This document shows, piece after piece, positions 9,299 through 22,416 of a stretch of 64,000 nucleotides of DNA; the first letter of the stretch is position 1; each line of letters begins with the position of its first letter. The stretch is from Methanolobus vulcani. GTDB lineage: Archaea; Halobacteriota; Methanosarcinia; Methanosarcinales; Methanosarcinaceae. The notes under the pieces are model-generated. The model was not told the origin of the DNA, searched no databases, and was given only the letters and a program-made list of their open reading frames with translations. The stretch lies in assembly GCF_900100715.1 (NCBI RefSeq), contig NZ_FNCA01000006.1, forward strand, positions 18,276 to 82,275. The letters run 5' to 3'. Both the position numbers and the translations under genes were made by a program.

Positions 9299-10885
9299 TT
9301 ATTTCTTAAAACAGGTATCAAGGTGTTCCTGCGGTGTTGGCTTTGTCATAAGACTGACTACGATAGCAACTACAAATGCAAGTGGTGTCGCCACAAGTAT
9401 CGGGTCTACGACAGTCCAGGTTCCTGTGAGGATAGTATCAACACCAAATATTGCCTTGCTGATTCCAAGTGGTACAGCTTCTGATTTGTGCACAAATGCC
9501 AGCCAGAACAAACTGCTGAAAGTACCAACAAGCAGACTTGCAATTGCTCCTTCCTTTGTCATACGCTTCCAGAAAAGTGCTCCTGTGTACATTGGCAGGA
9601 AAGCTGCTGCACAAAGTCCGAAGAATATCGCAGTTGCACGGGCAATGATACTGATCGGAAGTATGTATGCCAGCACGACACTTGCAAGGATTGTGAATGC
9701 GATTGCTGCCTTTGTGATATTGATAGTTTGACCGAGTTCTCCTTTTTTCAGGTATTCACGGTAGAAATCATGTCCTATTGATGTTCCCATTGTGTGGAAC
9801 TGTGAACTCAGTGTTGACATTGCTGCTGCCAGCAGGGTTAGCATGAACAGAACTACAAAAGTACTTGGCATCGCACTGTTGATAAATTCCGGCATGATAA
9901 GGTCAGTGTTTCCACCGGCAACGACAACTGATATCTTACCTAGTGTCTGGTAGAAGTATGCGTTTGAGAGCGCACCGACCGTAAAAGCTACTCCTGTCAT
10001 CATGAGGATAAAAGGTCCTCCGACAAGTACGGCTCTGTTGAGTGCAGTGTCGTTCTTTACTGTCATGAACCTGACTGCAAGTTGAGGTTGAGCAACTACA
10101 CCAATTCCTACTCCAAGTACAAGTGTTGATACAAGTGTCCACCATATTGGTGAGCCAAATGCAGGCATGGATGTCCATCCCAGATGTCCTCCTGCTGCAA
10201 GACTTTCAGGTACCAGATTATTCATAGCTGTGAGTGCTGAATGGGCTGCAGTTACTCCGCCAAGTTTTGCATATGTGAATACCAGAAGGAATGCCATTCC
10301 TATGAACATAAGTGTTCCCTGAAGGGCGTCTGTATACATAACAGCGATAAGTCCGCCTGTAATTACATAGGCTGCAACGATTACTGTGAGAATAAGGACT
10401 GCAACGTCATAGTTTATACTTAGGGTTGATTCAAGGAACCTTGCTCCTCCGATAAGTACAATACCTGCGTAGAGTGGCATGAAGATGCCTATTAATGCTC
10501 CTGAGAATCCCTGTATGAACCTTGACTGGAAACGCCTTCCGATAAGTTCTGGGAATGTAACCGCATTTAGGTTAAGTCCCATACGGCGGGTCTTGGAACC
10601 AAAGAATACGAATGCGATAAAGATACCTACAAAAATGTTCATAAATGCAAGCCATAAAAGTCCCATACCAAGGGCACCGGCGGCTCCACCAAAACCGATG
10701 ATGGCTGAAGTACTGATAAATGTTGCACCATAGGACAGTGCAAGAATATAAGGATGTATTTGCCTTCCGGCTACCATATAGTCTTCAGTCTGTTTTGTTT
10801 TCTTATATCCGAGCCACCCGAGGTAAAAGATCACCATGAGGTATATAAGAATAATTATTCCGAGAACTGGCGTACTTAGTACCAT
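9299..10885 (-). CDS. Sodium:solute symporter family permease, copy 1
   Basis: About 528 residues with 12-13 hydrophobic segments of the SSS/LeuT fold. Recognisable family stretches are YMVAGRQIHPYILALSYGA, TFPELIGRRFQSRFIQGF, YVITGGLIAVMYTDALQG and AAAMSTLSSQFHTMG. The substrate cannot be read from sequence. The start is placed at ATG 10885, because GGAGAGGTGG lies just upstream and the tandem copy starts at the same point; an upstream in-frame ATG at 10921 lies inside the small accessory gene. The ATG shares one base with that gene's stop (TAATG), so the two are translationally coupled. It is a close paralogue of the permease at 11950-13539. Confidence 0.9.
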   Translation of the reverse strand: MVLSTPVLGIIILIYLMVIFYLGWLGYKKTKQTEDYMVAGRQIHPYILALSYGATFISTSAIIGFGGAAGALGMGLLWLAFMNIFVGIFIAFVFFGSKTRRMGLNLNAVTFPELIGRRFQSRFIQGFSGALIGIFMPLYAGIVLIGGARFLESTLSINYDVAVLILTVIVAAYVITGGLIAVMYTDALQGTLMFIGMAFLLVFTYAKLGGVTAAHSALTAMNNLVPESLAAGGHLGWTSMPAFGSPIWWTLVSTLVLGVGIGVVAQPQLAVRFMTVKNDTALNRAVLVGGPFILMMTGVAFTVGALSNAYFYQTLGKISVVVAGGNTDLIMPEFINSAMPSTFVVLFMLTLLAAAMSTLSSQFHTMGTSIGHDFYREYLKKGELGQTINITKAAIAFTILASVVLAYILPISIIARATAIFFGLCAAAFLPMYTGALFWKRMTKEGAIASLLVGTFSSLFWLAFVHKSEAVPLGISKAIFGVDTILTGTWTVVDPILVATPLAFVVAIVVSLMTKPTPQEHLDTCFKK

Positions 10886-11010
10886 TAGTCCACCTCTCCA
10901 TCGTCGGAATCGTCGTTCCATTTAAGGGCTCCATAGATCATGCAGCCAATGGCGCTTACAAAGCATAGTATGTAAGCCAGCCATATCTGTGGGTCATCTA
11001 TTCCAAGCAT
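10885..11010 (-). CDS. Symporter small accessory protein, copy 1 (41 aa)
   Basis: A 41-residue protein starting MLGIDDPQIWLAYILCFVSA, with one transmembrane helix (~9-29) and an acidic tail KWNDDSDDGEVD. AAGGAGAAAAATG places a good ribosome binding site before ATG 11010. Its TAA shares a base with the permease ATG. The same gene with nearly the same sequence precedes the second symporter copy, which shows that it is a real conserved protein. I recall small ORFs of this kind being named symporter small accessory proteins in archaeal annotation. The role is presumably assembly or stability of the permease. Confidence 0.85.
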   Translation of the reverse strand: MLGIDDPQIWLAYILCFVSAIGCMIYGALKWNDDSDDGEVD

Positions 11011-11949: not shown

Positions 11950-13539
11950 TTAATTTTTCTTAAAACACTGTTCAACATGCTCTTTTGCCATTGGTTCTGT
12001 CATAAGGCTCACGATAATCGCCACCAAAAATGACAGTGGTGTAGCAACAAGGATCGGGTCTACAAGGGTCCATGTTCCCGTAAGAAGTGTTGCCTGTCCA
12101 AAAAGTGCCTGGCAGATTCCAAGCGCGGTAGCTTCCTTGGCATGCACAAATGTGAGCCAGAAAAGACTGCTGAAAGTACCAATAAGAAGACTTGCTACAG
12201 CTCCCTGTCTTGTCATACGCTTCCAGAAAATAGCTCCTGAGTACATCGGGAGGAAAGCTGCTGCACAGAGTCCGAAAAATATTGCTGTTGCTCTTGCAAT
12301 AATTCCCGGTGGGAGAATGTATGCAAGGACAACACTGATGAAAATTGTTACAGCGATACCGACTCTTGTAACAGTAATCGTCTTTCCTATCTTTCCATTC
12401 ATAACTCCCTGGCGATAGAAATCATGTCCAAAGGCAGTTCCCATGGCGTGGAACTGTGAACTTAGTGTTGACATAGCTGCTGCAAGAAGTGTCAGCAGGA
12501 AGAACACTACAAAATAATCTGGCATTGCGCTGTTAATGTATTCCGGCATTATCTTGTCGATATTTCCACCTGCAACCTCAAGTGAAATCATTCCCTGGGT
12601 GTTGAAGAAATATACATTGGACAGTGCACCGACAATGTATGCCACACCTGCCATCATGAAAATGAAAGGCCCGCCTGAAAGAACCGCTCTTTTAAGGGCA
12701 CGTGTGTTCTTTACGGTCATGAATCTCACTGCAAGTTGTGGCTGTGCAAGTACACCAATACCGACGCCAAGTATTATGGTTGATACAAGTGTCCACCATG
12801 TTGGTGAACCAAATGTTGGCATGGTAGTCCATCCCGTGTGTCCGATGGCAGCAAGGTTATCCGGCACAAGGTATGCCATATTTGTGAGTGCCTGGTGAGC
12901 TTCGGTGACCCCTCCCAGCTTTGAATAAGTGAATACAAGCAAAATGGCCATTCCTACGAACATAAGCACACCCTGCAGGGCATCAGTGTACATAACAGCA
13001 ATAAGTCCGCCTGTAATTACATAAGCTGCAACGATTATTGCAAGAATAAGGATAGCGATATTATAATCGATATTCAGGGCTGTTTCCATGAAACGTGCAC
13101 CGCCTATCAGAACACTGCCTGCATAAAGTGGCATGAATATAGTGATTAGTGCACCAGAGAATCCCTGGATGAACCTTGACTGGAACCTTCTTCCGATAAG
13201 CTCCGGGAAGGTGACAGCCTTGAGGTTTACACCCATGCGTCTTGTCCTTGATCCGAATACTACAAAAGCGATAAAGATTCCCACGAAGATATTCATGAAA
13301 ACCAGCCACAGTATTCCAAGACCGAATGCCCCGGCATAACCTCCGAATCCTATGATAGCTGAAGTACTGATAAATGCAGCACCATAGGAGAATGCAAGCA
13401 CAAAAGGATTGACTTTCCTTCCAGCAAGCATATAGTCGTCATTGTCTTTTGTTTGTTTGTAGCCGACCCAGCCCAGGTAGAAGACCACCATCATGTAGGC
13501 GAGTACAGCCAGTCCAAGAACAGGAGTACTGACAGCCAT
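11950..13539 (-). CDS. Sodium:solute symporter family permease, copy 2
   Basis: A 529-residue SSS-family permease starting MAVSTPVLGLAVLAYMMVVF. It aligns over its whole length with the permease at 9299-10885 (for example TFPELIGRRFQSRFIQGFSG is identical) and has the same 12-13 helix layout. The two differ mainly in loops and the last ~60 residues. ATG 13539 overlaps the stop of its own small accessory gene by one base (TGATG). The two modules, each small gene plus permease, arose by tandem duplication. The substrate is unknown. Confidence 0.9.
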   Translation of the reverse strand: MAVSTPVLGLAVLAYMMVVFYLGWVGYKQTKDNDDYMLAGRKVNPFVLAFSYGAAFISTSAIIGFGGYAGAFGLGILWLVFMNIFVGIFIAFVVFGSRTRRMGVNLKAVTFPELIGRRFQSRFIQGFSGALITIFMPLYAGSVLIGGARFMETALNIDYNIAILILAIIVAAYVITGGLIAVMYTDALQGVLMFVGMAILLVFTYSKLGGVTEAHQALTNMAYLVPDNLAAIGHTGWTTMPTFGSPTWWTLVSTIILGVGIGVLAQPQLAVRFMTVKNTRALKRAVLSGGPFIFMMAGVAYIVGALSNVYFFNTQGMISLEVAGGNIDKIMPEYINSAMPDYFVVFFLLTLLAAAMSTLSSQFHAMGTAFGHDFYRQGVMNGKIGKTITVTRVGIAVTIFISVVLAYILPPGIIARATAIFFGLCAAAFLPMYSGAIFWKRMTRQGAVASLLIGTFSSLFWLTFVHAKEATALGICQALFGQATLLTGTWTLVDPILVATPLSFLVAIIVSLMTEPMAKEHVEQCFKKN

Positions 13540-13658
13540 CAGTCTTCCTCCTCTTCATCGTCGTTCCAGTGTATAAGTCCATAGATGACACATCCAATGG
13601 CACTTACAAAGCATAAGATATATGCAATCCATATTTGTGGGTCTGTTATTCCCAGCAT
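13539..13658 (-). CDS. Symporter small accessory protein, copy 2 (39 aa)
   Basis: A 39-residue protein starting MLGITDPQIWIAYILCFVSA, with one transmembrane helix followed by HWNDDEEEED. About three quarters of its residues match copy 1 at 10885-11010. The ribosome binding site is weak (TTGGAGTTGC, ten bases before ATG 13658). The stop shares a base with the permease start. It is too short for standard length cut-offs, but the conserved pairing makes it secure. Confidence 0.85.
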   Translation of the reverse strand: MLGITDPQIWIAYILCFVSAIGCVIYGLIHWNDDEEEED

Positions 13659-13797
13659 AATTAGCAACTCCAATAGTGATAATGGCAATTGTTAACACGA
13701 AACGTACTTTAACTTTTCGATATAATTCAGACATTTAAATTTTATCTATTGGATTGAAGTCTGGCATTAATTATAAATAAAAACGAGTCACACTAGA

Positions 13798-13906
13798 TTT
13801 AGTGTTAAAAACAAGTAGTGATTGTAACACTGAACTAAAACGGTGCAATGACAAAAACATGTCAGGCACTTCCTCTTAAAAAGAGGACATTGCACATCTT
13901 TTTTCT
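13798..13906 (+). ncRNA. Candidate small RNA with three stems
   Basis: Stem 1 is TTTAGTGTTA (13798-13807) with TAACACTGAA (13825-13834). Stem 2 is GTGCAATG (13843-13850) with CATTGCAC (13888-13895); it encloses a perfect hairpin TCCTCTT-AAA-AAGAGGA (13871-13887) and an alternative TGACA/TGTCA pairing. The second stem is followed by ATCTTTTTT, a plus-strand terminator tail. TTATAAATAA at 13771-13780 is a TATA box about 25 bases before stem 1. There is no coding frame. I do not recognise a known RNA family. Confidence 0.48.
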
Positions 13907-14130
13907 GCGGGTGTCATGCGCCCGCTCCTCCTTATTATTAATAAAAAGATAACCAGTATCGATGAATGTATTATCAAAAAAGGTCATTCGCTAGCTAAGT
14001 CTATCTCTGCACGATCAACTATACAAAATAAACCATTTATAAGTTGTTTTAAGTTTATTTCGGGGACAGTAGACACTGTGTACTTTATAAAAATAGAATA
14101 TATTTAAATACTATGTACTCTCAACGATAT

Positions 14131-14272
14131 TGAGTTGAAGCAGGAACTTTACACAACCAACAAAGTACCACCCCTTCCCCAACCCCAATTCAATTTTGGT
14201 CCTGCTTCAATTATTGTTGACCACTTTCTCTAGAATTATCCACATCCTTTTTTGTGGTCAGCAATACTTTTT
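14131..14272 (+). ncRNA. Candidate small RNA: two long stems, C-rich loop, T-tail
   Basis: AGTTGAAGCAGGA (14133-14145) pairs with TCCTGCTTCAATT (14200-14212), 13 pairs including one G-U, around a 54-base loop containing ACCACCCCTTCCCCAACCCC (14168-14187). Directly after it ATTGTTGACCAC (14213-14224) pairs with GTGGTCAGCAAT (14254-14265), 12 pairs including one G-U, followed by ACTTTTT. TATTTAAATA at 14101-14110 is a TATA box 23-32 bases before the first stem. No open frame fits. The C-rich loop is complementary to ribosome binding sites. The orientation is set by the T-tail and the TATA box. Confidence 0.55.
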
Positions 14273-14303
14273 ATATTAAACTGTAAATGCAACTTTTGTT
14301 TGA

Positions 14304-15170
14304 TCAGCAGTTTACTTCAGCCTTTATAAAAACGGCTCTGCTTATCTGTTGTGTCTCAACTGAGAAACCCGCTTTCTCAAAGTGGTCTACCCAGTCCTGA
14401 ATACCTCTTTCAGTTCCATGGTGGTGGTCCAGTGGTTCAACTGCCAGTACAGTACCGTTCTTTGAAACCACTCTTCTGACCTCTGAAAGAGCCTTTGGAA
14501 TATCATCAAGATGATGTAGCATAAAGAAACAAGTTACAGTTTCATAACTCTCATTATCAAAAGGAAGTTCATAGACACTTTCAGCCTTGAACTCCGCATT
14601 TTTAATATCATATGCAATAGCGTTCAAGCGGCATTGTTCCATGGTCTTTTCCAGAAGATCGATTCCCATAACCTGTGACTCCGGATTCATCCTTGCCATC
14701 TGCAATGTAAGGCTTCCGACACCACATCCAACATCCAGTATGCTCTTGCCGTTGGCCTGTGGCATTGCAACTTCCATGGTCTGCTTCTTAAGTATCTCCA
14801 TTCCGGCTGGTGGAAAATCAGCATCCGGATTATCAAATGATGTGTAAGGAACAATTCCATAAACTGAAGCATGATTCATGGCAAAAAGACCTTTGAGATA
14901 GATCTGTTTTTCATTGACCTTTATAAGTTCAACAACGGACACACCTGCGTCCCCGCAGAATCTTTTATTCCACTCATCTCTCTTTTCCGGGAATTCCATG
15001 TCAAGAGGATCGTGGATTATAATGTAATGCGAATAATCCTCATAGATGAAATTTTCAGCATCTGTGTCCTCAAGCTCGACAATACTGACACTCTCTTTCC
15101 AGAGTGCAAGTAGCTGCATTGTTTTTTCATCTGCAAAATTAGATACTTTTCCAATGGCTTTCAGTGACAT
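14304..15170 (-). CDS. Class I SAM-dependent methyltransferase
   Basis: About 288 residues. The C-terminal ~150 residues are a Rossmann-fold methyltransferase: motif I ILDVGCGVGSL, the acidic loop MGIDLLEK, motif II/III ESYETVTCFFMLHHL, and RRVVSKNGTVLAVEPL. The N-terminal ~125 residues (LKAIGKVSNFADEK...) are a separate domain I cannot name. ATG 15170 is preferred over the in-frame TTG at 15179. No Shine-Dalgarno site is seen, so the mRNA may be leaderless. It lies downstream of the surface-protein gene pair on the same strand with a 95-base gap. The substrate is unknown. Confidence 0.8.
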   Translation of the reverse strand: MSLKAIGKVSNFADEKTMQLLALWKESVSIVELEDTDAENFIYEDYSHYIIIHDPLDMEFPEKRDEWNKRFCGDAGVSVVELIKVNEKQIYLKGLFAMNHASVYGIVPYTSFDNPDADFPPAGMEILKKQTMEVAMPQANGKSILDVGCGVGSLTLQMARMNPESQVMGIDLLEKTMEQCRLNAIAYDIKNAEFKAESVYELPFDNESYETVTCFFMLHHLDDIPKALSEVRRVVSKNGTVLAVEPLDHHHGTERGIQDWVDHFEKAGFSVETQQISRAVFIKAEVNC

Positions 15171-15265
15171 AGTGCACAATTGTATTTTTCAGATATACCT
15201 TTAATGGTGTGCTGAAAAACTAGTACTATTTGATGCAGTACTTAAAATCCCGAGTTTGTTATGTC

Positions 15266-16050: not shown

Positions 16051-19000
16051 CTATTTCTTCCTCTTCAGAACAACAATCACACATGCCAGCAGGACTATAA
16101 TACCTGCAACAGCAAACCAGATATAATTCACAGGTGCTGTACTTTCAGGCACAGGAATCTCCTGTATATCTGTGTGCAGTTCAGATTCTTCAGCGGGAAC
16201 TTCTATTACTGTATCGTCAGCATTTTCCTGCACAGATCTAAACGCCACCAGAGGTTCATCATCTTTTGAATCGATTATGCCATCGCCATCAGTATCCGGG
16301 TTGAACGGATCGGTTCCTATCCTGTACTCAACCACATTTGGCAATCCATCCCTGTCTGAATCCAGGGGAGCACCATCATCTTCCGGTGTGATCTGTTTTC
16401 CTGCCAGGGCAAAGCTGGAAAGATGTGAGACTCTTGCCCACACATGACCTTCATAGACCTCTCCATACATTTCTACATTGGAAGTGTCCACACCTGCATT
16501 AGATAACTTTGTCCACCTGCCGGTATTTTCATCCAGATAGTATATGCACAGAGTGTTCTCATTAATGTCAGTCCTGTCAGTAAGGTCTCCGTCACCATTG
16601 CGGTCCAGTTCATTGAAGCGATAGTATATCGTGATCAGGGTACCATTGATAATATCAGTAGTTGCATTCTCGACATTCTCACTGACTATAATATCAAGGT
16701 ATTTTCCAATTGCATATTCATTTGATGCAAGTCCGGTGCCCGAAGTCAAGGTACGTACCGATGAACCTGATTTTCTGATCTTGATCCATGGTGTTACATT
16801 GGCATCAAGGACCATTCCTACTGTTGAGTCAGTCCTTTTAATCAAATCGGCGGAATCGATTACAAAAATATTAGAAGGCGCCATGAATTCTGTCAGTACA
16901 GAGTCAGAGGAAGTTGTGACACGCTGGCTTCTGAATGTGTGCAGTATCCTGCAATAATCATACATGTAGGGTTGAGAAAGCACGAAAACTGTTTGCGTGC
17001 TGTTCCATACTCCATACCTGACAACCATCCGGTCATAATCAGATGCCAGCATCCTGGAAAGTGTATCTTCATCGTTACTGAGCACATTATAGCTGATGTT
17101 GCCGGCTGTTCCATTCACATTCTCCGGTCTTCCCAGCAGAAGTACGTAAGTTTCATCCGAATGGTTCATCAAAAACTCATCTGCAGAATAAACGCTAATG
17201 TTGGTATACCTGCTCAAGGTGTCCAGCAGTTCTTCATTGTCCTCGCTTGCATCATATACGACCGTAATGTTCCTGACATTTGCCAGAACCGAATCAGTAT
17301 CAAGTGAGTCATTGATGTTATCGCCATCAGTATCTTCCTTTAATGGATTGGTGGCAAAGTTGATTTCCTGAAGATCAGTATATCCATCGTTATCGGTATC
17401 TGCAGACAATGGATTTGTCTTCATTTCAAGTTCTTCATTGTCTCTAAGTCCGTCGAAGTCTGTATCATTCAGCAGGGGACTTGTACCGGAACCATACACT
17501 TCTGTACCGTCAGACAGGCCATCGTCATCGGTGTCAGGATCGAGCGGATCTGATGTGAAAGACTTCTCAAGACTATCGAATAGTCCGTCATCGTCGGAAT
17601 CCGGTTTGAGAGGGTTTGAATTGAACAATACTTCTTCATAATCCGTCAGGTTGTCATCATCCGTATCTTTCTTCAGTGGGTTGGATGACAGAACGAACTC
17701 TGCAAGGTCATTAAGGCCTTCACCATCCGTATCCTGGATAAGTGGATCACTTCCGAAGAATACCTCCGTACTGTCATCCAGCCCGTCTCCATCAGTATCA
17801 TAATTAATCAGGCTGGTGTTAAGTGATTTTTCAGTGAAATCATTAAGACCGTCATTATCCGTGTCGGAGTTTCTGGGATTAGAACTACTGTTCTCATCAA
17901 GGTAGCATTCTTCGTGGTCGGTAAGACCATCAAAGTCACTATCCTTGTAGCGGGGATCACTTGTAACGTGGATGGTGTATGTACCTGACGAATTGGTAAT
18001 GGTTACTGACCAGCCTATCTGTTCATTTTCATCTATGAGGCTGTCCTTATCCTTGTCAGCACCGGAGTTTACCCATCCTTCCCTGGCAGGATAATAGCTG
18101 GTGTCAACTATTCCTATGATCTCCCTGTCATCTTCAGCAGGAGCGGGCATGGATGTATTCCATGTCTGGTAGAATCTAAGTGCAAAGATGTCAGTACTAT
18201 TAGGTGCAGTAAAGTTCAGGGTCGCAGATCCATAGGTCTCATTACCAATGGCAGGTGTGCCGTTGTATATTTCCTCATGCAGTGTGGAATTATCCAGACT
18301 TACAAAGAGCCAGCACCTTGCAGGTTCATTTGTGGAATTTACCTTTCCAATCAGTGTATAATCGATAACTGCTGTGATGTTCGTTTCAGGGTCTGTCTTT
18401 ATATTCCTTCCCATGCCGTTCATGTCTACATTGCTGACATAAGCCTTAGCTGTGAAGTTCGTGTCATAAAGGTCTGAAATACCGTTTCCGTTAGTATCTT
18501 TGGATCTGGGGTTCAATCCTTTGAGGAACTCATAGAAATCGGTAAGTCCGTCATCATCCGTATCATTGACCAATGGGCTTGACCACACGTGCTGCGAAAA
18601 GGTCTCATCATAAAAATCAAATTCAATGTCCCATCCATGATACTCTTCGAAGTCACTGAGCTTGTCACCATCGGTGTCCCATACAAGCGGATCATAACCA
18701 TAACGCAGTTCAAGCCCATCCTCAAGTCCGTCACCATCTGTATCCTTGTTCACAGGAATGGTGCCATACTCGATCTCATATCCATCGGACAATCCGTCAT
18801 TGTCGGTGTCCAGTCTCAGGTAACTTGTGCCATTAAGCAGCTCATCAGTGTAGAGGACACCATCACCATCGGGATCATTGGGTGAAATGGCTGTCCACTC
18901 TAAGAATTCATCAATATCTGCAGGCATGACATCAAAGTAGAGTGTAGAAGGATCTGAATCAGAGATGCCTGAATTGCTTTTCTCACTGCAGTGCCATCCA

Positions 19001-22000
19001 AAGAGCCACCAGCATTTATCATAGTATACTCTATAGCCTGTACTCAGCCAGAACTTAAATGGGAAGTTAACAGCTGCATCAGGTTCAACCCACAGATCAG
19101 TCGTATATTCTGTTTCTTTCTTATAGTAATTATTCAGATAGGTCGTCAAACCCTCTGTAGTGGAACTGCTACCTGCTAATGTATATGCGGAACTGTACTG
19201 GTAATTGGGGCGTATGTAGCTATTTTGTAGGTTTGTATATGATCCACGGGATGTTCTTGTAACAATTCCCTTGAACTTGCTTTCCATCTCGATACGGTCA
19301 CCTGCTGTCAGGCCGTTTTCAGTATAGTCCACTACATTCACCGAAGTATCCAGCATTTTCAGGTCCACTTCAGTCTTGACCCTCACATCAAGGAAAAGCC
19401 CGATAAACCATTCAAAGAACATCTGGGACCAGCCTTTACCGAATATCCATCCTACTATCAGGTCTGACAGGGCAACAAGTAATGCGATGGCCCATCCCAC
19501 CACAGGAATCGCAGCTATAGCTGCCAGAGCAACTGCATATATGATCATGAGCACAGCATACATTGTACCAACGAATATACCATATCCTGACCAACCTTCA
19601 CTGGAAGCTATTGACCAAAAGGCGTAGAATGCGATAGCACCTATGACGACCCAGCCTATTGCAGATAATACACTGGATATCCTGTTAACTGCACCAAGGA
19701 AACCATTACGTATCTCTGAGACCGATTCGGTCATTGCTGCCATGAGTTTCCAGCTAGTCTGACCTGCAATTGGTGCGAGTGGCTCTAGCTTTACAAAGGT
19801 GAGATATGAATAGAGTGCAGCTCCTCCGATTATCAGGTTACATACAAAGTCAATAGCTGATATACCGTAACTATCAATGGCATCAAGTACATCATTTCCT
19901 TCAGGGAAATTAAAATCAGTCTCTACCTGGCCGATTTTTGTCACCGTTGATTCGCCGGTCTCCCAGGCGATCATGAGATTCATAAATGTTGCAAGTGTTT
20001 CAACATCAAGATTCCTCGACAGACCCCATTGCCTGGTTTCTTCCAGCATTTCTTCAGTAGTGATACTTTCATTTGTGTCAGTATCGTACCATGTCATCTT
20101 CATGCTCTTTGAGGTGATAAGAGGCTGACTCCTAAGTCCGATATCAAAACTATTCCCTGTAATATATGAGCCCATAGCCATGTCATCCATGGACTGATAT
20201 CTGAATTCATCCTCAAACAAACCTATTACAGGCAGTATCATACCGGAAGGCAGGGTTGACAGTATATCTGAGGTCATTTCACCAGTTATCTTTGCAAGGG
20301 CTTCGTCCTGATGGCTTGCAGAGCCGGTTTCATAGTTAATAGTCACATTATACTCATTCTGCAACTTTTCTGGCATCTGTTCAAAGGGTGTCTGGTCCCT
20401 TAAGTATGCATAGGAAAAAACGAAACCAGCTTCAAAGGTTCGGTTCTTATCATCACTATAGAATAGTCCGAAATCCGACCTCTGGTTCTCTTCAACATTA
20501 AAGCCAGTGAGCATAAAATTCTCGTGATACTGTGCAAGGGTTGTGGTAACCGATTCATATTCACTTGTTTCCAGTGTGAAAGTTTCCCAGTCTCCTCTTT
20601 TATCACTGTTCGCAATTAGTGTGGATCCTCCACCATTTTTTGCGGAAACGTAAAGTCCGTTGTCAGCTTTAAGAGCTATCTGGTTATTTTCAAGATCAAG
20701 CAGTTCAAATATCTCACTGCTACCAATGTCATTGCTGCCTGCAATTAGTTTATGTTCTTCTGTATCGGAAACATATGCATATTTTCCACTGGAGGATTTC
20801 AATGCGACTTTGTTGTTATTGAGGTACACTATCTCAAATGTTTCAGCGCTTGCTACTGAGGTACTTTCTGCAACAAGTCTGGAGTCTGTATTATCTATTG
20901 ATACATATTGATCCTTGAACGCTTTTAGCAGTACTTTCTTTGGCCTGTCGGTCTTTCCTGACACCATCCACGTAAGTTGTGCCTGCGTAATCGTTTCCAG
21001 TGAGGAGTCCTGTGGATAGAACATGCGACCGTTCAAAGCCACGGTATCACCAAAATCCTTCACAGGAGAAAGGGGAACGTAGGCTTTGCCCAGTGTGGTG
21101 ACAATTCCATAATTCTCTTTAGCATCAGAATCGGATGCTATACCACCAACAAGTTCAATTTCCCATAACTGCAGATCTGATCCGGTAGAACTATTCTGGA
21201 CCACAGTGGTTCCATTGATATCGGAATGTATTTCCAGACACTTATCACTGTGTCTGGCAGTGATCTGATAGACCCCGTCGCTGTTTAGTTCCAGTTTCCA
21301 GAGCTGATATTCATCGCCTGTGTAGTTTCCAAGGGTGACATTTGCTATATCCTCTGTGCTGGCATTGAAAACCTCAAGGCATTTGCTGCTGTTACTGGAA
21401 ATAATTCTATAATAACCATCATCTCTCAATTCAAGTCTCCAGAGCTGATAGTCTTCACCGGAATAATTACCAGTGGTTACATTCAGTTTACCAGCATCTG
21501 TAGGAGCTTGCAGACTTTCTCCGTTCTCAACAGATATTATCCTGCAGTCAACAGGAATTGTCAGTTCCAGCATTGGAGTGACCGTGACATCCTCTGTAGA
21601 ACCATTTAGATCCTTCATGGTTGCAAGTGAATCATCAGGCCAGTCCCAGCTCTGGGAAAGCAATTTCAAATGCTCTTCGTTTTCCGGTCTTATCTGGAAG
21701 TTGAGGTAGGTGGGATTTCCATTCGATGATATATTGAATTCAAAGCTCTCATTTGGGCTGGATCTTGAAAAAGGAGAAAGATCAAGGGCATCGATAACAC
21801 CGTCATTGTCGTTATCAAGGTCCCATGCGTTTACAAATCCATCGCCATCGATGTCATTCGATGAAACATTGTGAACTTCAAAATAATCTGCAAGGCCATC
21901 ATAATTAGAATCAGGTTCAAGGGGATCAAGGTCGTTATTGATCTCAAAGAGGTCATCAAGCTGGTCAAAATCAGAATCAGTGTTATTAATATCTGTTCCC

Positions 22001-22416
22001 AGTATAAGTTCAACAGAGTCAGGGATACCGTCCCCGTCACTGTCTGGACCGTATTTTGTCAGGTTCATATCAATATCAGAAACATCAGTTGCAAGTGCAC
22101 GGATACCCTGAAACGTTCCATTGTTATTTTGATTTGTAATATTGTTTTGTATCGAGACTATTATAGTATCAATATCCACTCCAGGATTATGCTGGTTCGC
22201 AAAAGCAACAGATTGTGCAAGTGCATTTAGTGAAGAAATTTCAGAGGGTGAAATAGATGTTTTTTCCTCGGAAGAATTGTAAAAGTTGTTATCGTTGGAA
22301 GTAGCTAAAGCAGGGTAAATGCTCGATCCTATCAACAGGTAAATTGTACAGAGCGCAAAAAGCTTAATCGCTTTCTTGTGGTAAGAGGAATATATGCCAG
22401 CTATCCGGACAGACAT
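16051..22416 (-). CDS. Giant calcium-binding surface protein with beta-trefoils and TSP3 repeats (2121 aa)
   Basis: An N-terminal signal sequence (~15-38) and a C-terminal helix YIWFAVAGIIVLLACVIVVL with RKK end mark a cell-surface protein. In order: a TSP3-type DxDxDGxxD block (~115-225); a ricin-like trefoil (~290-430) with three QLW motifs; a fascin-like trefoil (~475-620) with KYAYVSDTEEHKLIAGS-type repeats; a region of unknown fold; a strongly hydrophobic, Gly/Ala-rich core of four or five segments (~855-1010); a Tyr/Trp-rich module; TSP3 blocks at ~1180-1310 and ~1490-1710; a domain with Ig-like or GW-like strands; and a last TSP3 pair (~2015-2055). The trefoils suggest glycan binding. 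The internal membrane-like stretch is unusual for an adhesin and resembles the hydrophobic part of translocating toxins. Start ATG 22416; a TATA-like AATATAAAATATG lies upstream. Confidence 0.8.
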   Translation of the reverse strand: MSVRIAGIYSSYHKKAIKLFALCTIYLLIGSSIYPALATSNDNNFYNSSEEKTSISPSEISSLNALAQSVAFANQHNPGVDIDTIIVSIQNNITNQNNNGTFQGIRALATDVSDIDMNLTKYGPDSDGDGIPDSVELILGTDINNTDSDFDQLDDLFEINNDLDPLEPDSNYDGLADYFEVHNVSSNDIDGDGFVNAWDLDNDNDGVIDALDLSPFSRSSPNESFEFNISSNGNPTYLNFQIRPENEEHLKLLSQSWDWPDDSLATMKDLNGSTEDVTVTPMLELTIPVDCRIISVENGESLQAPTDAGKLNVTTGNYSGEDYQLWRLELRDDGYYRIISSNSSKCLEVFNASTEDIANVTLGNYTGDEYQLWKLELNSDGVYQITARHSDKCLEIHSDINGTTVVQNSSTGSDLQLWEIELVGGIASDSDAKENYGIVTTLGKAYVPLSPVKDFGDTVALNGRMFYPQDSSLETITQAQLTWMVSGKTDRPKKVLLKAFKDQYVSIDNTDSRLVAESTSVASAETFEIVYLNNNKVALKSSSGKYAYVSDTEEHKLIAGSNDIGSSEIFELLDLENNQIALKADNGLYVSAKNGGGSTLIANSDKRGDWETFTLETSEYESVTTTLAQYHENFMLTGFNVEENQRSDFGLFYSDDKNRTFEAGFVFSYAYLRDQTPFEQMPEKLQNEYNVTINYETGSASHQDEALAKITGEMTSDILSTLPSGMILPVIGLFEDEFRYQSMDDMAMGSYITGNSFDIGLRSQPLITSKSMKMTWYDTDTNESITTEEMLEETRQWGLSRNLDVETLATFMNLMIAWETGESTVTKIGQVETDFNFPEGNDVLDAIDSYGISAIDFVCNLIIGGAALYSYLTFVKLEPLAPIAGQTSWKLMAAMTESVSEIRNGFLGAVNRISSVLSAIGWVVIGAIAFYAFWSIASSEGWSGYGIFVGTMYAVLMIIYAVALAAIAAIPVVGWAIALLVALSDLIVGWIFGKGWSQMFFEWFIGLFLDVRVKTEVDLKMLDTSVNVVDYTENGLTAGDRIEMESKFKGIVTRTSRGSYTNLQNSYIRPNYQYSSAYTLAGSSSTTEGLTTYLNNYYKKETEYTTDLWVEPDAAVNFPFKFWLSTGYRVYYDKCWWLFGWHCSEKSNSGISDSDPSTLYFDVMPADIDEFLEWTAISPNDPDGDGVLYTDELLNGTSYLRLDTDNDGLSDGYEIEYGTIPVNKDTDGDGLEDGLELRYGYDPLVWDTDGDKLSDFEEYHGWDIEFDFYDETFSQHVWSSPLVNDTDDDGLTDFYEFLKGLNPRSKDTNGNGISDLYDTNFTAKAYVSNVDMNGMGRNIKTDPETNITAVIDYTLIGKVNSTNEPARCWLFVSLDNSTLHEEIYNGTPAIGNETYGSATLNFTAPNSTDIFALRFYQTWNTSMPAPAEDDREIIGIVDTSYYPAREGWVNSGADKDKDSLIDENEQIGWSVTITNSSGTYTIHVTSDPRYKDSDFDGLTDHEECYLDENSSSNPRNSDTDNDGLNDFTEKSLNTSLINYDTDGDGLDDSTEVFFGSDPLIQDTDGEGLNDLAEFVLSSNPLKKDTDDDNLTDYEEVLFNSNPLKPDSDDDGLFDSLEKSFTSDPLDPDTDDDGLSDGTEVYGSGTSPLLNDTDFDGLRDNEELEMKTNPLSADTDNDGYTDLQEINFATNPLKEDTDGDNINDSLDTDSVLANVRNITVVYDASEDNEELLDTLSRYTNISVYSADEFLMNHSDETYVLLLGRPENVNGTAGNISYNVLSNDEDTLSRMLASDYDRMVVRYGVWNSTQTVFVLSQPYMYDYCRILHTFRSQRVTTSSDSVLTEFMAPSNIFVIDSADLIKRTDSTVGMVLDANVTPWIKIRKSGSSVRTLTSGTGLASNEYAIGKYLDIIVSENVENATTDIINGTLITIYYRFNELDRNGDGDLTDRTDINENTLCIYYLDENTGRWTKLSNAGVDTSNVEMYGEVYEGHVWARVSHLSSFALAGKQITPEDDGAPLDSDRDGLPNVVEYRIGTDPFNPDTDGDGIIDSKDDEPLVAFRSVQENADDTVIEVPAEESELHTDIQEIPVPESTAPVNYIWFAVAGIIVLLACVIVVLKRKK
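17299..17949 (-). repeat. Main TSP3-type calcium-binding repeat block in the giant surface protein
   Basis: About eleven consecutive units of roughly 18-19 codons, each with D-[ST]-D-x-D-G-L-x-D followed by x-E-x-x-x-x-[ST]-[DN]-P-L. The DNA copies are diverged (GTCATCGTCGGAATCCGG-like) but keep the codon phase. Two smaller blocks lie near 18480-18870 and 21770-22050. Confidence 0.85.

Follow-up and report, generated by a model that had tools for sequence, protein, structure and literature searches.

The closest described systems come from Methanosarcina mazei and from the genus Methanolobus itself. In M. mazei, sRNA154, which is under nitrogen control, folds into a stable two-loop structure that carries an anti-RBS sequence in loop 2, and sRNA41 has been proposed to mask ribosome binding sites (RBSs) within polycistronic mRNAs (PMC5867862). 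The 191-nt sRNA162 of the same organism, which has cis and trans targets, contains three stem-loops, the second and third (SL2 and SL3) being separated by a 39-nt linker, and its homologues have been found only in Methanosarcina (PMC3510493). In Methanolobus psychrophilus R15, cold-induced sRNAs share a conserved 'cold box' located 5' of their promoters (PMC5378194).

We analysed a candidate small RNA gene in a 64,000-nt stretch of DNA (the window) from a Methanolobus genome of 2.95 Mb in 20 contigs. Like sRNA154, the candidate is an intergenic archaeal sRNA with two loops from a related genus; unlike sRNA154, which is reported as conserved in Methanosarcina, its model has no family match outside Methanolobus, the two RNAs being compared here by description rather than by sequence. 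It resembles sRNA162 as a lineage-restricted intergenic sRNA composed of stem-loops and a single-stranded region, and it resembles the cold-box sRNAs, from the same genus, in having a shared motif 5' of the promoter, a likeness judged by the position of the motif. The mechanism described for sRNA41 is the one proposed for this locus by the initial annotation, and the RBS preference that it implies is absent from loop 1 of the Methanolobus RNA (see below).

The unit lies on the plus strand, and all the parts named in the initial annotation (a TATA box, two long stems, a 54-base C-rich loop and a T-tail) were located in the window. The TATA box TTTAAATA (14103–14110) has an A-rich BRE-like stretch 5' of it. 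Stem-loop 1 (14134–14211) is built from a 12-bp stem with arms GTTGAAGCAGGA (14134–14145) and TCCTGCTTCAAT (14200–14211), which encloses the 54-nt C-rich loop 1 (14146–14199) containing the conserved ACCA...UACCACCC. Stem-loop 2 (14212–14266) follows directly, with a 13-bp stem formed by TATTGTTGACCAC (14212–14224) and GTGGTCAGCAATA (14254–14266) and a 29-nt loop (14225–14253) containing the conserved UAUCCACAUCC. The T-rich tail at 14267–14275, a possible termination site, is present in most copies at this locus. It is weak in some orthologues, including G001, and absent from the second copy type described below, and no bacterial-type intrinsic terminator was called at the locus. The description of the locus as a complete transcription unit thus stands for the TATA box, the stems and the T-rich tail, and does not extend to a terminator.

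The unit is flanked by two minus-strand genes, a convergent SAM-dependent methyltransferase (14304–15179; Pfam Methyltransf_25 and related domains) and, upstream, a sodium:solute symporter (11950–13539; Pfam SSF, E = 1e-60) that together with a 49-aa ORF spans 11950–13688. This ORF (13539–13688) has a similar counterpart at 10885–11010 on the same strand; each of the two (MLGITDPQIWIAYILCFVSAIG... and MLGIDDPQIWLAYILCFVSAIG...) lies directly 5' of a sodium:solute symporter gene, and both are probably small accessory membrane proteins. At about 13750–13830 on the minus strand, a GTGTTACAA...TTTTTAACAC dyad that looks like an operator is located 5' of the TATA-like TTTTTATTTATAA of the symporter, and it recurs in several Methanolobus species. 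Elsewhere in the window, the minus strand encodes at 16051–22416 a protein of 2121 aa that has a membrane helix at its C terminus and many calcium-binding repeats of the DxDxDG type; it is probably a large surface protein.

The hairpin region folds far more stably than expected from its composition, with a minimum free energy of −37.3 kcal/mol compared with −18.3 ± 3.0 for shuffled sequences (z = −6.4; equalled by 0 of 200 shuffles). The minus strand reaches −36.1 kcal/mol, and since both strands fold almost equally, the assignment of the strand rests on the promoter. Loop 1 varies between 46 and 57 nt in the seven orthologues by steps that are not multiples of three, which indicates that the hairpin region is non-coding; a small protein-coding ORF was accordingly rejected, as its frame is lost across loop 1. 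Neither strand carries an ORF that spans the hairpins and reaches 40 aa, and the view that the unit has no coding frame is borne out. The loops are C-rich and poor in G (55 G in 787 nt, about 7%, vs 14% in the intergenic region). Searches against 4227 Rfam families gave no match at the gathering threshold in the window and none at E ≤ 1 for 13300–14420, and no tRNA or tmRNA was found in the window.

A predicted promoter of the unit's own lies within the intergenic region. In all nine copies of the unit identified, the TATA box reads TTTAAATA, TTTATATA or one of these with a single base changed. Each copy has 24–25 nt between the end of this box and stem 1, though the sequence of that spacer is not the same in the two copy types. 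Because the TATA-to-start distance is reported as 19–22 nt in M. psychrophilus (PMC5378194), the predicted transcription start falls at the foot of stem 1, at about 14130–14133, 20–23 nt past the TATA box.

Upstream of the promoter is a conserved element (14026–14060, plus strand), a putative regulator site, that forms a perfect 8-bp dyad AAATAAAC-N19-GTTTATTT around AGTTGTTTTAAGT (14042–14054). It is near-invariant in seven species, and a scan of the window allowing up to 3 mismatches returned only the element itself, with 0. The 13-mer AGTTGTTTTRAGT, which sits inside this dyad at the present locus, is also found upstream of the second copy type; measured from start to start, it precedes the TATA box by 61 nt in the former and 21 nt in the latter. 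Elsewhere in the four genomes searched, AGTTGTTTTRAGT has only two matches, both within coding sequence; the two extra AGTTGTTTTGAGT matches likewise lie in coding sequence.

Orthologues of the unit were identified by blastn among 60 relatives in six further Methanolobus genomes, at the same place and with 74–84% DNA identity to the window. A covariance model agreed with this set, giving seven carriers among 27 Methanolobus genomes, and a later model, run with stricter filters on 112 genomes of the family, had no match beyond the carrier clade. Across the oriented alignment of these copies, hereafter type A, the stem arms, the TATA box, the upstream element and the ACCA... loop word are near-invariant. 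The loop word UACCACCC is kept in most of the seven copies; the C-rich core is altered to ACCAGCC in G007 and to AGCACCC in G010.

The neighbouring methyltransferase gene is present in 26 of the 27 Methanolobus genomes, and the seven carriers form one branch of its tree with support of 98/99. The gap between the methyltransferase and the symporter is 749–769 bp in five carriers and 518 bp in G007, figures that leave out the carrier M. vulcani, where other genes intervene; in non-carriers the gap is 295–447 bp, except for one at 636. Because the carriers form one clade and the non-carriers are without some 350 bp at the locus, the comparison indicates that the sRNA unit was gained once, as a cassette of about 350 bp whose approximate limits, judged from the intergenic gap sizes, are 13945–14290.

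A second conserved structured element was observed 3' of the methyltransferase stop in many Methanolobus species. This hairpin, GGAGGAGCGGG(T/C)G...C(A/G)CCCGC (window 13889–13935, minus strand), has a stem with paired changes, such as GCGGGTG/CACCCGC and GCAGACG/CGCCTGC. It lies 11–31 nt past the stop in non-carriers; among the carriers it was recognised in four, at 368–377 nt past the stop.

A second type of copy, type B, was detected at another place in M. bombayensis by the covariance model (36 bits, E = 4e-5), and a DNA search then recovered the M. vulcani orthologue at 81% identity. The two type B copies occupy places unrelated to the type A locus and have differing neighbourhoods, within a block of about 310 bp. 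The genomes hold one or two copies each, and the window's own genome contains no further copy, even at E ≤ 10. Stem 1 of type B is of the GCGGGAUGAUAA/UUAUCCCGC type, the type A counterpart being GUUGAAGCAGGA/UCCUGCUUCAAU, while stem 2 is kept, as AUUGUUGGCCAC/GUGGCCAACAAU in M. bombayensis and AUUGUUGGUCAC/GUGACCAACAAU in M. vulcani. The type B loop words read UACCAACUAA(G/A)AACC(C)ACCCC, so that UACCA and CCACCCC are retained; loop 2 is almost wholly different between A and B.

The two copy types provide the comparison by which pairing of the stems can be judged. With both types aligned, 97.7% of paired cells can pair, compared with 25–62% when the structure is slid along the alignment. Four pairs, in 6 cells, are changed on both sides, a count matched by 1 of 500 shuffles, and the covariation score is attained by 0 of 500. 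These double changes comprise A-U to G-C in stem 1, and A-U/G-U to G-C and C-G to U-A in stem 2; the fourth pair, at the foot of stem 1, is uncertain. Since the alignment had been adjusted to the structure, with differences in just two lineages, the count is best read as about three independent events. Among the seven type A copies the stems show one-sided changes and no double change, so the covariation support rests on the comparison of A with B; the mismatches within type A are a C-U in stem 2 of one copy and a C-A in stem 1 of another. In stem 2, 8 of the 13 pairs are invariant across both types. The compensatory stem changes in relatives that the initial annotation had named as a check are therefore present in both stems between A and B. 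Together with the orthologues and the fixed TATA-to-stem spacing, they uphold its small RNA reading, and the comparison supports a structured plus-strand small RNA at the locus.

The initial annotation had further suggested that the C-rich loop pairs with purine-rich RBSs and represses many mRNAs, in the manner of sRNA41 or of loop 2 of sRNA154. The loop word CCACCC is indeed common to A and B, and GGGTGGT occurs just 5' of the start codon in mrpE and certain other genes that are conserved in the carriers. This proposal found no support in comparison with shuffled sequences. Against the RBS regions of 47 genes of the window, with start codons assigned by a simple rule, loop 1 has a mean energy of −9.5 kcal/mol and its shuffled versions −11.1, a rough test that a single specific target would escape; 149 of 150 shuffles pair with RBSs as well as or better than the native loop. 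Loop 1 therefore shows no sign of a general tuning to RBSs, and its affinity for them is a product of C content alone. In five carriers, GGGTGGT before ATG occurs at about 28–35 places per genome compared with about 14–25 for the reversed pattern, many of them within coding sequence. The pattern search pointed to mrpE (Pfam MNHE), an RnfA-like gene and a few others. The RBS of mrpE reads GGGTGGT in all five genomes examined, with energies inside the shuffled-loop range; across the carriers, most GGGTGGT-RBS candidates deviated in energy from shuffled loops by no more than 2 sd, and the results were not reproduced from one species to another. Among the window RBSs and the selected starts in carriers, no target emerged as conserved. 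With the C-rich core also altered in G007 and G010, a general RBS blocker is unlikely, and we give very little credence to broad repression of many mRNAs.

By its position the unit could also act in cis. The RNA 3' end would lie some 40 nt away from the stop codon of the methyltransferase, in opposite orientation, and this arrangement is common to the seven carriers, so that a plus-strand RNA overlapping the 3' UTR of the convergent mRNA might use its perfect complementarity to control the methyltransferase or any read-through that enters the symporter operon. In M. vulcani the end of a convergent gene faces the type B copy as well, and sRNA162 works both in cis and in trans (PMC3510493). However, a pure antisense mode requires neither a conserved loop nor compensatory stems, the M. 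bombayensis copy is not convergent with its neighbour, and type B has no adjoining methyltransferase, all of which make this explanation an unlikely one. The near-invariance of stem 2, which exceeds the needs of pairing alone, and the open, G-poor loops would also be in keeping with an RNA that binds or sequesters an RNA-binding protein, rather than mRNAs, through its C/A/U-rich loops or through stem 2, but the almost complete divergence of loop 2 between A and B leaves such a role with a rather slim chance of being correct.

The most improbable account is that of an untranscribed DNA element, or a small MITE-like mobile cassette, with inverted repeats and a chance promoter. It would fit the single gain of about 350 bp, the occurrence of the type B block (about 310 bp) at unrelated sites, and the near-palindromic nature of stem 2 on both strands. 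Counting against it are inverted repeats that are not at the cassette ends, with stem 2 at one side only, the low copy number, and the conservation of the promoter, the TATA-to-stem spacing and the single-stranded loop words; the terminal inverted repeats and several copies expected of a MITE-like element were not seen. Phage and plasmid records gave no match to the sRNA locus. One match of the stem-2 pattern in a viral contig, with a model score of 33 bits, was dismissed as chance because it falls inside a long coding sequence.

In some species, TTAAAAC-N12-GTTTTAA-like dyads were also seen in the intergenic region that separates the genes of an RND-type exporter and of a TrmB-like regulator (L097:2970–2997, L098:3036–3048, L105:1502–1529), and they resemble the element 5' of the type B sRNA genes; we regard this likeness as a lead and not as a result. 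A wider scenario would have a self-contained cassette, consisting of regulator site, promoter and two-hairpin RNA, arise in or enter one Methanolobus clade and then be copied to new places, with the stems changed and the loop words kept. In that scenario the promoter dyad, AATAAAAC-N12-GTTTTAA-like, would be common to the sRNA unit and the intergenic region of the RND-exporter/TrmB-like regulator pair, so that sRNA and regulator might make up one circuit. We consider this scenario speculative and unlikely as a whole.

The explanation that we favour, and hold to be probably correct, is a plus-strand intergenic non-coding sRNA of about 135–145 nt, confined to one Methanolobus clade; less certainly, it would pair in trans with one or a few mRNAs. 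Its 5' end would coincide with the foot of stem 1 and its 3' end would lie near or past stem 2. The stems may serve as scaffold and protection, while the C-rich loop (ACCA...UACCACCC) would provide the pairing with the target mRNAs. With similar caution, a regulator acting on the putative dyad site 5' of the promoter might set the amount of the sRNA. Trans action is favoured because the type B copies sit in different neighbourhoods, and pairing with a few mRNAs appears the most likely mode by analogy with the M. mazei sRNAs (PMC5867862, PMC3510493).

The locus thus appears to represent an sRNA family that is new and specific to one clade, with copies of two types; it is of an ordinary kind and well supported by comparison. 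Few archaeal sRNAs have been characterised, most of them from one or few species. Here, nine diverged copies mark the constrained parts, namely the loop words, stem 2, the promoter spacing and the upstream dyad, and two paralogue types, whose differences lie chiefly in the stems, are accompanied by a natural series of presence and absence at one locus. For these reasons the family would offer a convenient case for studying the birth of an archaeal sRNA gene and for locating the part of it that bears the function.
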